This document shows positions 43,684-47,782 of a stretch of DNA of 64,000 nt, piece by piece. Under the pieces are notes generated by a model. The model was not told the origin of the DNA. It saw only the letters and a program-made list of their open reading frames with translations, and searched no databases. The first letter of the stretch is position 1; each line of letters begins with the position of its first letter. The DNA comes from Sneathiella sp. P13V-1 (GTDB lineage: Bacteria > Pseudomonadota > Alphaproteobacteria > Sneathiellales > Sneathiellaceae): positions 186,001 through 250,000 of the forward strand of contig NZ_WYEU01000001.1 of the NCBI RefSeq assembly GCF_015143595.1, in the 5' to 3' direction. A program made the translations under genes and the position numbers.

Positions 43684-45519
43684 CTACTCAAATACTTCAT
43701 CTGCGTCGATGGGCATGTCTGCGCCACCAAATTCCATATCAATATCGGGGGACAAGTCGCGCACTTCAACAACTGTCGCCCCATTAAAGGTATCCTTGAT
43801 TTTCTGTACCAGCGGGTGACGCTCCGCTGCAGCAAGCATCGCCGCACGGTCCGATTGGCGTTTTTCCGCAACGGTTGGTGCCCCTTCCGCGTCAGCAGAC
43901 AGTTCAACCTGCCAAGGCTCCCCTGTAATTTCACGAAGGCGACGTCCCAACTTCGCCGCCAGATCAACTGGTGCTCCGGGTGCCGGGCTAAATTCAAGAT
44001 AGCCTTTGTCAAATTTTACAGGGCGAACGAAATTGATCACCTGCCCCTTCAACATCACATCCGCGCGGTCTTGCAGCAGATCCACCACATCATCCATATT
44101 ACGAAGGGCATCAGGCACCATGTTTTGGACAGGCTCTTCCACTTGCGGTGCAGGGGTTTCCACAGCCACTTCTTCAGGTAGGGTGTCATTTACAATCTTT
44201 AACTGAGCCCTTGGTGCAGATGTGGGTGCTGGTGTGGGGGCTGGATTTGAAACCGCAAGTGCCGCAGCACTGCCGCCCATACGCGCAGCTGGACCTCCAT
44301 TAGGTACTCCGCCTCCACTAGAAGGAGAAGGCGCCCCTCCGCTCGTTACATTTCCATCCTGAACCTGACGGGCAAGATCACCCGGACTTGGTAAATCACT
44401 GGCGTAAGTCAAGCGCACCAACAACATTTCAGCCGCAGCAATTGCACTTGGAGCCCGCCGTGTTTCATCCAAACCTTTCAAAAGCATTTGCCAGGTACGT
44501 GCCAAAACCGGCATGGAAAGTTTTCCGGCCATCTCCTGACCACGAGTGACATCCCCGCCGCTCACCGCCACATTGTTCGCTGCTTCCGGCGTAACCTTTA
44601 AAGCTGTCATCCAATGTGTTAGTTCCAACAGATCCTGAATGATAACAACTGGGTCTGCGCCGCGGTCATATTGGCCACGTAATATATCGAGCGCCTCAGC
44701 AATGTTTCCTTGAAACACCACATCCAGCAAATCCAGCATGCGGGACCGATCCGCAAGACCCAGCATGTCGCGGGCCTGATCCGCATCCACATGCCCATCA
44801 CCATGGGCTATTGCCTGATCAAGAAGTGACAGGCCATCACGCACGGACCCTTCCGCCGCGCGTGCAATCAGTGCCAATGCCTCTTCTGAGACACTGGCAT
44901 TTTCTTTTTCTGCGATTTTTCCGAAATAATCCGCGAGCGTTGCTGCATCGACCCTTTTTAGATCGAACCGCTGACAACGCGATAAAACCGTTACAGGAAT
45001 TTTACGAATTTCTGTCGTCGCAAAGATAAACTTCACATGCTCTGGTGGCTCTTCCAGCGTCTTCAAAAGCGCATTGAACGCGTTTTTCGACAGCATATGC
45101 ACTTCGTCGATGATATAGATTTTGTACCGTGCATTGATAGGTAAATACCGAACCCCATCAATCAATTCACGGATATCATCCACTCCAGTACGGCTGGCGG
45201 CGTCCATCTCAAGAACATCCTGATGGCGATCTTCGGCAATCGCCACGCAGTTTTCACAGACACCACAAGGATGGACCGTCGGACCGCCATTACCGTCCGC
45301 CCCGATACAGTTGAGACCACGCGCGATGATTCGCGCCGTCGTTGTTTTGCCGATACCCCTTGTTCCTGTCAAAACAAAGGCGTGCGCCAGGCGGCCAGCC
45401 TCCAAGGCATTGGAAAGCGTTCTGACCATGGCTTCATGGCCAATCAGATCGTCAAAGTTGGACGGGCGGTACTTTCGCGCCAGAACACGATAGGCTGTTT
45501 TTTGCTCTTCTTCAGACAT
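43684..45519 (-). CDS. dnaX: DNA polymerase III gamma/tau subunit
   Basis: A 611-residue clamp-loader subunit. The AAA+ module has Walker A GTRGIGKTTTARI (52-64), a zinc module with the CGVCENC cysteines, Walker B IYIIDEVHML, sensor I FATTEIRKIP and SRCQRFDLKR. A Pro/Ala-rich linker (about 395-460) leads to the tau-like C-terminus that contacts the polymerase. No internal slippery A-run is seen, so a separately frameshifted gamma is not supported. The SRP RNA gene is just upstream on the same strand. Confidence 0.95.
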   Translation of the reverse strand: MSEEEQKTAYRVLARKYRPSNFDDLIGHEAMVRTLSNALEAGRLAHAFVLTGTRGIGKTTTARIIARGLNCIGADGNGGPTVHPCGVCENCVAIAEDRHQDVLEMDAASRTGVDDIRELIDGVRYLPINARYKIYIIDEVHMLSKNAFNALLKTLEEPPEHVKFIFATTEIRKIPVTVLSRCQRFDLKRVDAATLADYFGKIAEKENASVSEEALALIARAAEGSVRDGLSLLDQAIAHGDGHVDADQARDMLGLADRSRMLDLLDVVFQGNIAEALDILRGQYDRGADPVVIIQDLLELTHWMTALKVTPEAANNVAVSGGDVTRGQEMAGKLSMPVLARTWQMLLKGLDETRRAPSAIAAAEMLLVRLTYASDLPSPGDLARQVQDGNVTSGGAPSPSSGGGVPNGGPAARMGGSAAALAVSNPAPTPAPTSAPRAQLKIVNDTLPEEVAVETPAPQVEEPVQNMVPDALRNMDDVVDLLQDRADVMLKGQVINFVRPVKFDKGYLEFSPAPGAPVDLAAKLGRRLREITGEPWQVELSADAEGAPTVAEKRQSDRAAMLAAAERHPLVQKIKDTFNGATVVEVRDLSPDIDMEFGGADMPIDADEVFE

Positions 45520-45603: not shown

Positions 45604-45702
45604 TTCAAGAAGACTGGCAACGACCCGCACCAAAACTCGTTACGGCTGCTTCCTTCCGGACCTGACCGGGTTGGCGAGGGGCACGCCCATCACCAGCCTT
45701 CC
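45604..45702 (-). ncRNA. ffs: Small bacterial signal recognition particle RNA (4.5S type)
   Basis: On the minus strand the conserved domain IV is unmistakable: GTCAGGTCCGGAAGGAAGC followed by AGCC (plus-strand positions 45644-45666). The terminal helix pairs GGAAGGCTGG (45702-45693) with CCAGTCTTCT (45617-45608), including G-U pairs. A promoter fits six bases upstream, setting the 5' end near 45702; the 3' end is approximate. The RNA binds Ffh to target membrane proteins cotranslationally, and lies next to dnaX as in many bacteria. Confidence 0.93.
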
Positions 45703-45737: not shown

Positions 45738-45813
45738 GCCTTTTTCTGCAATTTTTTTTGACCGAATGCTGCATTTACAACCAGTAGGGAGTTATGCCAA
45801 AGTCAAAACCATC

Positions 45814-46737
45814 ATGAATAATCCACTCGTCTTCACCGGTAATAGCTTTGACCGGGCAAGTCACTTGCGTGGTGATGCCAACTGGCTTGCAGAACAACAA
45901 CAAAAATCCGACAGTCGATGGCTTCCCATGCATCGGCTCAAAGCACTGATCAACCTTGGAGAAGGCGCAGAGATTTGCTGGCGCCCTTACGATGAGGTCA
46001 AATCATTCGTTGAGCACAATGCCACAGTTATCTTTTTGGGCATCTTGGAAGGTGTTTCGCATTTCGCCGTAGATGTCTCTGAAATGGAAAACCCGAAAAC
46101 ACTTCCTTATGAAAGATGGGGGAAGTTTATTGATGTCCGTTCCATTTCTGCTCAGCTGAATTCACATGAAGCCGGTGTATTGGCGCAAGCACGTTCAATG
46201 ATCGCCTGGCATGACAATCACAAGTTTTGTTCAGTTTGCGGCCAACCTTCTAAGGTGCAGGAAGCTGGCTATTCACGAAAATGCAGTAGTGAAGACTGCA
46301 ACGCCCCTCACTTCCCACGTACGGACCCTGTTGCCATCATGATGGTTGTGAAGGATGACAAATGCCTTCTCGGGTATGGCCCCCACTTCCCAAAAGAGCA
46401 ATATTCCGCGCTTGCCGGCTTTATTGAACCGGGTGAGACCATTGAACAAGGGGTGCGCCGCGAGATATTTGAGGAAACAGGTGTTCAGGTGGGCGAGGTT
46501 ACCTACCATTCATCTCAGCCTTGGCCCTATCCATCATCACTGATGATCGGCTGCTTTGCCGAAGCTCTGACAGAAGAAATCACACTTGACCCAAAAGAGC
46601 TGGCGGATGCGGGCTGGTTCACAAAATCCGAAGTACAAGACATGCTGGCAAAATCCTTAACCCGGGAAACACCGCGCATGTCACCGCCGCTCGCGATTGC
46701 TCACCAACTTGCAAAGGCTTGGGCCGAAAGCGACTAA
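45814..46737 (+). CDS. nudC: NAD+ diphosphatase
   Basis: A 307-residue NudC-type hydrolase. The zinc ribbon has CSVCGQPSKVQEAGYSRKC and a further Cys in SSEDC; the Nudix box is GFIEPGETIEQGVRREIFEE followed by TG; the downstream SQPWPYPSSLM is the NudC signature SQPWPFPxS. It cleaves NAD(H) and can remove NAD caps from RNA. The ATG at 45814 suits the family start, though no strong ribosome-binding site is seen. A terminator follows. Confidence 0.93.
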   Translation: MNNPLVFTGNSFDRASHLRGDANWLAEQQQKSDSRWLPMHRLKALINLGEGAEICWRPYDEVKSFVEHNATVIFLGILEGVSHFAVDVSEMENPKTLPYERWGKFIDVRSISAQLNSHEAGVLAQARSMIAWHDNHKFCSVCGQPSKVQEAGYSRKCSSEDCNAPHFPRTDPVAIMMVVKDDKCLLGYGPHFPKEQYSALAGFIEPGETIEQGVRREIFEETGVQVGEVTYHSSQPWPYPSSLMIGCFAEALTEEITLDPKELADAGWFTKSEVQDMLAKSLTRETPRMSPPLAIAHQLAKAWAESD

Positions 46738-46762
46738 CCAAATCCGCGAATCAACAGGAATC

Positions 46763-46802
46763 AAGGAAGATTGTTCAAATTGATCAATCTTCCTTTTCTT
46801 TT
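46763..46802 (+). terminator. Rho-independent terminator after nudC
   Basis: An 11-bp stem (AAGGAAGATTG 46763-46773 with CAATCTTCCTT 46785-46795) is followed by TTCTTTT, 25 bases after the stop codon. Confidence 0.82.
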
Positions 46803-47069
46803 GGAAATTAAAGAACTCAAAAAGCGATTAGATTATTGATTTGTTGCAATGCAGCAATTTTAGAAAAATTTGATTTAGATTTTGCCGCGCCATTTTCTCT
46901 GAATCTTCAAATCTCCATCGAAAAATCTTGATTTCAAACGCTGAAGTAAATCACAGAAAAGTAACGAAATGGGCTAATTTTCGGCATTTCACGCCTACTA
47001 ATTAATCAATCAGCTTATTTCGCGAGCAGAATTTATTTTTTGGAAAAAAAGTCGGCAAAAAAAGAAAAA
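46803..47069. other. AT-rich intergenic stretch with no gene seen
   Basis: Between the nudC terminator and the small-RNA candidate lies an AT-rich region with short homopolymer runs and a small TTGC..TGC..GCAA repeat near 46839-46860. No open reading frame or RNA motif is convincing. Confidence 0.4.
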
Positions 47070-47106
47070 TTGCACTTGCGATATCATTTCGCAGGTGCAA
47101 TATAGT
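47070..47106 (+). promoter_or_regulatory. Inverted repeat and -10 element in front of the candidate small RNA
   Basis: TTGCACTTGCGA(T) at 47070-47082 is mirrored by TTCGCAGGTGCAA at 47088-47100 (13-bp arms with two mismatches). TATAGT (47101-47106) directly after it is a good -10 hexamer; TTGCGA (47076-47081) with a long 19-bp spacer is the best -35. The arrangement suggests a repressor or activator site over the promoter. Confidence 0.5.
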
Positions 47107-47107
47107 C

Positions 47108-47193
47108 CTTGTCAGCACACACACACTGACTGCCCTCAATGAGGGCGTTTCCTCCCTTACTTGGGCTGCGTTGCCGCGCAGCCCTTTTTTTTT
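47108..47193 (+). ncRNA. Candidate small regulatory RNA with CCTCCC loop
   Basis: About 85 nt with three predicted hairpins and no coding potential. Hairpin 1 is GTCAG (47111-47115)/CTGAC (47126-47130) around a ten-base CA-repeat loop; hairpin 2 is GCCCTC/GAGGGC (47132-47146); hairpin 3 is a terminator GGGCTGCG (47163-47170)/CGCAGCCC (47177-47184) with nine Ts. The unpaired segment between hairpins 2 and 3 contains CCTCCC (47151-47156), an anti-Shine-Dalgarno type sequence as in several alphaproteobacterial trans-acting RNAs. A promoter fits just upstream. No plus-strand gene precedes it to explain the terminator. Confidence 0.65.
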
Positions 47194-47204
47194 GTTCGAA
47201 AACT

Positions 47205-47768
47205 TTATCGGGCAGTACTGGCCAATGTCAATGGGTCTGTGAATTTTAATAGACCACGGAACGGAATGATCAACACTGCGATCATCGCAAGTTTCACACC
47301 ATAGTCGCCCAGCGCCCATGTCATCCATGGAAGACCTGTGCCTGCGAAAGCGAGGGAGAAGAAAATTACTGTATCCACAGAAGACGCGAAGAAAGAAGAG
47401 ATAATCGGAGCTTTCCACCAAGAACCACGGCGTAATTTGTCAAACAGAAACACGTCCAGAAGCTGGGCAGTCAAGAAGGCTGAACCGGAGGCGATTGCGA
47501 TACGCGTATCAGCAAGCCATAGAGACATGATGACCGCAGCCACAAAACCAACGAACACAACAACTTGTGCCTTCTTTGGACCAAGCGCGCGATTTGTAAG
47601 GTCAGTTACCAAGAACGCAAACGGATAGCTGAGCGCCCCCCATGTCAGCCAATCATTAATCGGCATTTCCACCAGAATATTGGAAGAGGTCACAACAATC
47701 GCCATAGCGACAACACCAAGCAGAAGAAAAACACGCTGCGCTGATGTGGTTTTGGATACGGTTTCCAT
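47205..47768 (-). CDS. VUT-family (YhhQ-like) queuosine-precursor transporter
   Basis: A 187-residue membrane protein with about six helices and the signature of the YhhQ/VUT family: SYPFAFLVTDLTNRALGPKKAQ, then SGSAFLTAQLLDVFLFDKLR and SSFFASSVDTVIFFSLAF. Members take up queuosine precursors such as preQ0 or preQ1. The ATG at 47768 is used; another ATG directly precedes it. No preQ1 riboswitch is recognisable in the 86-base leader, which instead carries the pheA terminator hairpin. Its stop lies 12 bases from the end of the candidate small RNA on the other strand. Confidence 0.86.
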   Translation of the reverse strand: METVSKTTSAQRVFLLLGVVAMAIVVTSSNILVEMPINDWLTWGALSYPFAFLVTDLTNRALGPKKAQVVVFVGFVAAVIMSLWLADTRIAIASGSAFLTAQLLDVFLFDKLRRGSWWKAPIISSFFASSVDTVIFFSLAFAGTGLPWMTWALGDYGVKLAMIAVLIIPFRGLLKFTDPLTLASTAR

Positions 47769-47782
47769 CAAATACGTCCTAC

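Follow-up and report, generated by a model that had tools for sequence, protein, structure and literature searches.

The DNA analysed here, hereafter the window, is a stretch of 64,000 nucleotides from Sneathiella sp. P13V-1, in which the gap separating nudC from a queuosine-precursor transporter gene (46738-47204) is free of plus-strand genes. This agrees with the initial annotation, which had placed a candidate small RNA (sRNA) in this gap, and direct reading of the plus strand recovers most of the parts that it had described: a -10 element immediately behind a 13-bp inverted repeat, an unpaired CCTCCC, which is included in the stretch TTTCCTCCCTTACTT, and a terminator stem followed by exactly nine T (Table 1). 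The consecutive hairpins which it had listed are retained only in part, since hairpin 1, hairpin 2 and the terminator are readable as such but the upstream palindrome is very probably an operator and not an RNA stem. On the minus strand the window also contains a bacterial small SRP RNA (RF00169, 58.8 bits; 45606-45701), upstream of an apparent dnaX (43684-45519, minus strand).

Table 1. Features of the sRNA locus and its flanking genes, in window coordinates.
Feature	Position	Strand	Basis
nudC (NADH pyrophosphatase), flanking gene	45766-46737	+	Pfam PF00293, PF09296, PF09297
Operator: palindrome with 13-bp arms (one mismatch) and 7-bp spacer	47069-47081 / 47089-47101		Direct reading and conservation
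Operator core arms TTGCACTTGCGA and TCGCAGGTGCAA, abutting the -10	47070-47081 and 47089-47100		Direct reading
-10 element TATAGT	47101-47106	+	TAT invariant directly behind operator in 9/9 loci
Predicted sRNA transcript, ~80 nt	47112-47193	+	Start inferred from -10; RF00519 match; fold
Hairpin 1, stem GTCAG (47111-47115) / CTGAC (47126-47130)	47111-47130	+	Direct reading; stem invariant
(CA)5 stretch, loop of hairpin 1	47116-47125	+	Direct reading
Hairpin 2, arms 47132-47137 / 47141-47146	47132-47146	+	Two pairs with compensatory changes
10-mer TTTCCTCCCT, unpaired predicted anti-Shine-Dalgarno pairing site	47148-47157	+	Reading, RF00519 match, fold
Intrinsic terminator, 9-bp stem (47163-47184) and nine T (47185-47193)	47163-47193	+	Three pairs with compensatory changes
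Queuosine-precursor transporter gene, flanking gene	47205-47771	-	VUT1, TIGR00697

The sRNA is a further member of the already known MmgR/alpha-r8 family, as judged from its sequence. Indeed, positions 47125-47199 of the plus strand match the Rfam model RF00519 (suhB, described as MmgR) with 50.9 bits over model positions 1-77 of 77, the curated cut-off being 41 bits, and eight further Sneathiella-type loci also score above this value, so that all nine pass. The RNA carries the exact family 10-mer UUUCCUCCCU, which follows a hairpin and is itself followed by a Rho-independent terminator, and the first nine bases of the 10-mer are invariant in the nine loci; the same 10-mer is common to alpha-r8 RNAs, and in Caulobacter it has been proven to be where SisA pairs (PMC12559287). 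The initial annotation had proposed that an operator-like promoter drives a trans-acting sRNA with an anti-Shine-Dalgarno motif, together with a covariance-model search in relatives, and the scores of the nine loci, along with covariation in hairpin 2 and the terminator (see below), bear this proposal out. Two other assignments were rejected: SorY (RF02651) reaches 25.1 bits, far under its cut-off of 111, and an antisense match to the FdoG thermometer, which with 15.6 bits stays well under the cut-off of 50, is attributed to chance. In the literature searched, no paper had both 'Sneathiella' and 'small RNA'. By itself, the sRNA only adds Sneathiella to a family known across Alphaproteobacteria.

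The predicted fold of the 124-nt strand has an energy of -52.6 kcal/mol (z = -6.7), whereas for the RNA part alone (47112-47193) z is -4.7 and none of 200 shuffles was as good; the 10-mer is unpaired in this fold. In the alignment of nine sequences from Sneathiella-type loci (A1), five base pairs are changed on both sides, two in hairpin 2 and three in the terminator, and standard pairs make up 99.7% of cells, a figure that takes in the operator arms. When the partners were slid by 1-3 columns as a control, only 0-2 both-side-changed pairs were obtained. The stem of hairpin 1 is invariant, so that covariation says nothing about this element, and its loop ranges from (CA)3 to (CA)5 across loci, being once 12 nt long with an interrupting T. 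The compensatory changes by which the initial annotation had proposed to judge its stems are found in hairpin 2 and the terminator, but neither in the CA-hairpin nor in the palindrome. Similarly, the (CA)n loop that it had put forward as a marker for homologues is a Sneathiella feature, but one of variable length, and the marker of the family is UUUCCUCCCU.

Taken by its letters alone, the upstream palindrome would not be exceptional: inverted repeats with 12-bp arms and no more than one mismatch occur at about nine places in the window, as compared with 0-3 in simulated windows, and the operator is convincing because it is conserved. The arms of the pattern TTGCACTTGCGA-N7-TCGCARGTGCAA occur in all nine loci, the outermost base differing in S. 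glossodoripedis, and 10 of the 12 arm pairs never vary while none is changed on both sides; the spacer is always 7 bp long and free in sequence. Arms that lack both-side changes, unlike the adjoining RNA stems, and a free spacer of fixed length point to a protein-binding DNA site, and we consider that the palindrome is very probably a DNA operator rather than a transcribed hairpin, which places the RNA start most likely near 47112. The operator-like promoter of the initial annotation is thereby upheld. In S. meliloti, too, mmgR is controlled via a dyad between -35 and -10 (PMC8401924, PMC12542648), in line with an operator at this promoter. The palindrome does fold very stably as a single strand, as would be expected if a longer RNA began with it as its first hairpin; this reading is nevertheless highly improbable, given that the arms do not covary in the very loci where hairpin 2 and the terminator do, and that a TAT-type -10 follows at a fixed distance behind a spacer of fixed length.

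The operator appears to be restricted to this promoter. A search of the genus allowing up to three mismatches returned one site per operator genome, in front of the sRNA, and a search of the class with a slightly looser pattern found no operator outside the genus among 385 genomes, five of which are Sneathiella. The latter search added one weaker site, a 3-mismatch copy (L107, G005:C1:2341122-2341152), which lies between apparent rhodanese-type and ABC-F-type (ABC-F ATPase) genes, in front of the latter, and is seen in no other genome. Relaxed searches for more operator copies gave scattered near-chance matches and no conserved second site, and a literature search with the operator half-site returned nothing but a paper on wheat, which is unrelated. 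Since the 31-bp operator has one close match per genome, it offers a precise DNA bait for the transcription factor that would bind it.

As to the nature of this factor, PhaR is the main rival candidate. The mmgR gene of S. meliloti is a direct target of PhaR, which recognises a YGCRNYGCR box in its promoter (PMC12542648), and B. diazoefficiens PhaR likewise uses GC-N3-GC (PMC6201568, PMC10888616). A PhaR-like box (GC-N3-GC) is present within 60 nt upstream in 9 of the 14 RF00519 loci outside Sneathiella, the background in stretches of the same size being 0-18% per locus, and PhaR is encoded in all 16 genomes tested, that of the window included. On these grounds PhaR might bind two relaxed sites in the operator (TGC-N4-GCG and CGC-N4-GCA), each arm having a YGCR-N2-YGCR core, and the palindrome would be a double operator within the usual PHB-sensing circuit. 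We regard this as unlikely. The published PhaR sites have the GC-N3-GC spacing, and a scan of four Sneathiella loci found no such box (YGCRNYGCR, GC-N3-GC) within 60 nt before the sRNA match; the operator has GC-N4-GC twice instead, and the invariant arms give the same in the remaining loci. In fact, the same genome keeps canonical boxes elsewhere, with a pair at the phasin promoter, 58 bp apart, one in the region upstream of phaR and others at a second array of CUCCC RNAs (see below). This difference in spacing within one genome suggests that the sRNA is most likely controlled by a regulator other than PhaR.

The operator spans about -43 to -12, so that it covers the -35 and touches the -10, and judging from this position the protein that binds it is probably a repressor. 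Sites overlapping the core promoter, as here with a centre at about -27, are typical of repressors, and the short spacing that marks NtrC sites is absent from the arms. Both points weigh against an activator that would compensate for the poor -35 (TTGCGA, with a 19-bp spacer), a possibility that we hold to be improbable, even if a sigma70 consensus scan found no match at the sRNA promoter and NtrC is a positive regulator of mmgR in S. meliloti (PMC8401924).

The sRNA gene occupies the same place, between nudC and the queuosine-precursor transporter gene, in all nine loci; sRNA and operator are found together in 8 of the 24 genomes of the genus, L088 being the ninth locus, and the named records with the sRNA beside this transporter gene include Sneathiella glossodoripedis, S. 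chinensis and Sneathiella/Sneathiellales assemblies. A distinct arrangement is seen in other Sneathiella genomes, where at 9 of 11 nudC loci (L117-L125) the nudC and transporter gene ends are only about 20 bp apart with no RNA between them. At the other two (L126, L127) some 1.1 kb separates the genes, and an RF00519 search of the respective genomes (G022 and G014) gave no above-cut-off match anywhere. The operator genomes form one group with a support of 1.000 in both the nudC tree and the concatenated protein tree, while the group is unresolved in the transporter tree alone. Since the sister group lacks the sRNA at this place and the operator genomes form one group, the difference between the two Sneathiella lineages would go back to one event, either a gain of the gene at this place, its relocation to it or its loss. 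What the sequences show is that the RNA belongs to the family, that its structure and its operator are conserved, and that its presence is clade-specific. In one operator-less Sneathiella assembly (L089) an isolated GTTTCCTCCC, which may possibly be a remnant or possibly a chance occurrence, is located about 20-30 bp downstream of the transporter gene, with no sRNA-like terminator.

Another contig of the window genome harbours a tandem array of CUCCC RNAs (L198, G000:C3:270300-270900), composed of ACCTCCCTGTTAGACTTG and a terminator, with a further CTCCC in the loop of a 5' hairpin; relatives are L199, L201, L202, L204, L205, L207, L209, L211 and L213. The array copies that were scored fall below the RF00519 cut-off. 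One array copy, where the stretch covers it, has a sigma70-like promoter framed by two canonical PhaR boxes that are 61-62 bp apart; in the window genome (G000) this promoter is TGGAAA-N17-TATATT and the boxes are 62 bp apart, a layout as at the phasin promoter that is kept in several relatives. In operator-less Sneathiella genomes a further CUCCC RNA (GACGCCTCCCTGTTGACTTG and a terminator; L208, L210, L212, L214) lies about 6 kb from the array, and no PhaR box was seen at these four loci. The less ordinary part of the system is the promoter, which in one Sneathiella branch has a long, highly conserved operator where relatives often have a PhaR site. Tentatively, and with slightly less than even confidence, we propose that the carbon-storage circuit was rewired between sibling anti-Shine-Dalgarno RNAs in one Sneathiella clade: the MmgR-type sRNA would have left the control of the PHB sensor PhaR for that of another regulator with essentially one 31-bp operator in the genome, the PhaR boxes being found instead at the CUCCC array, in the double-box layout of the phasin promoter. 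The promoter suggests that sibling RNAs with one pairing site can pass to different regulators.

Altogether, we consider it highly likely that the locus encodes a trans-acting MmgR/suhB (alpha-r8) sRNA of about 80 nt which, from an operator-controlled promoter, acts by pairing and translation block. At the promoter of the RNA, the 31-bp palindromic operator overlies the -35 region, and the amount of RNA made would be set by a DNA-binding protein, more likely a repressor, at this site, which is not a canonical PhaR box. With UUUCCUCCCU exposed between hairpin 2 and the terminator, the RNA could pair, with the help of Hfq, with purine-rich, GGGAGGAAA-like Shine-Dalgarno regions, and so block the translation of the mRNAs bound there. 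By analogy with relatives, Hfq dependence, repression by pairing and a link to carbon storage or uptake may be expected. Few start codons are preceded by an exact complement of the core: a search for AGGGAGGAAAC before ATG gave one match in the window genome, in front of the gene for a 302-aa protein that by its sequence appears to be an alpha/beta hydrolase. The only recurrent gene is that of a molybdenum hydroxylase iron-sulfur subunit, preceded by the match in three operator genomes; it was rejected as a target, as a very similar GGGAGGA Shine-Dalgarno is largely common to genomes that lack the sRNA, and its recurrence is no evidence of targeting.

In respect to known systems, the closest comparison is S. 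meliloti MmgR, which lowers phasin protein levels and PHB accumulation and for which Hfq dependence has been reported (PMC8401924). The Sneathiella sRNA shares with it the hairpin, 10-mer core and terminator over all 77 model positions, as well as a regulator dyad near the -10; it differs in having an extra 5' hairpin with a (CA)n loop, in its location between nudC and the transporter gene, and in a promoter with the 31-bp operator where MmgR has the PhaR box CAATTGTGCACCGCAGCATTA. In Caulobacter, many mRNAs are under repression by SisA-type RNAs, for which the RNA CrfA serves as a titrating sponge, SisA being Hfq-dependent and pairing at ribosome-binding sites (PMC12559287). Caulobacter crescentus SisA-D (alpha-r8) have the identical UUUCCUCCCU core behind a weak hairpin, and these siblings are likewise under unrelated promoters (PMC12559287); however, the gene linked to sisA encodes an N-formylglutamate amidohydrolase, and no promoter motif is conserved among sisA-D, unlike in the Sneathiella loci. 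Finally, a CCUCCC between two stems is a feature that the Sneathiella RNA has in common with Rhodobacter sphaeroides SorY (RF02651).
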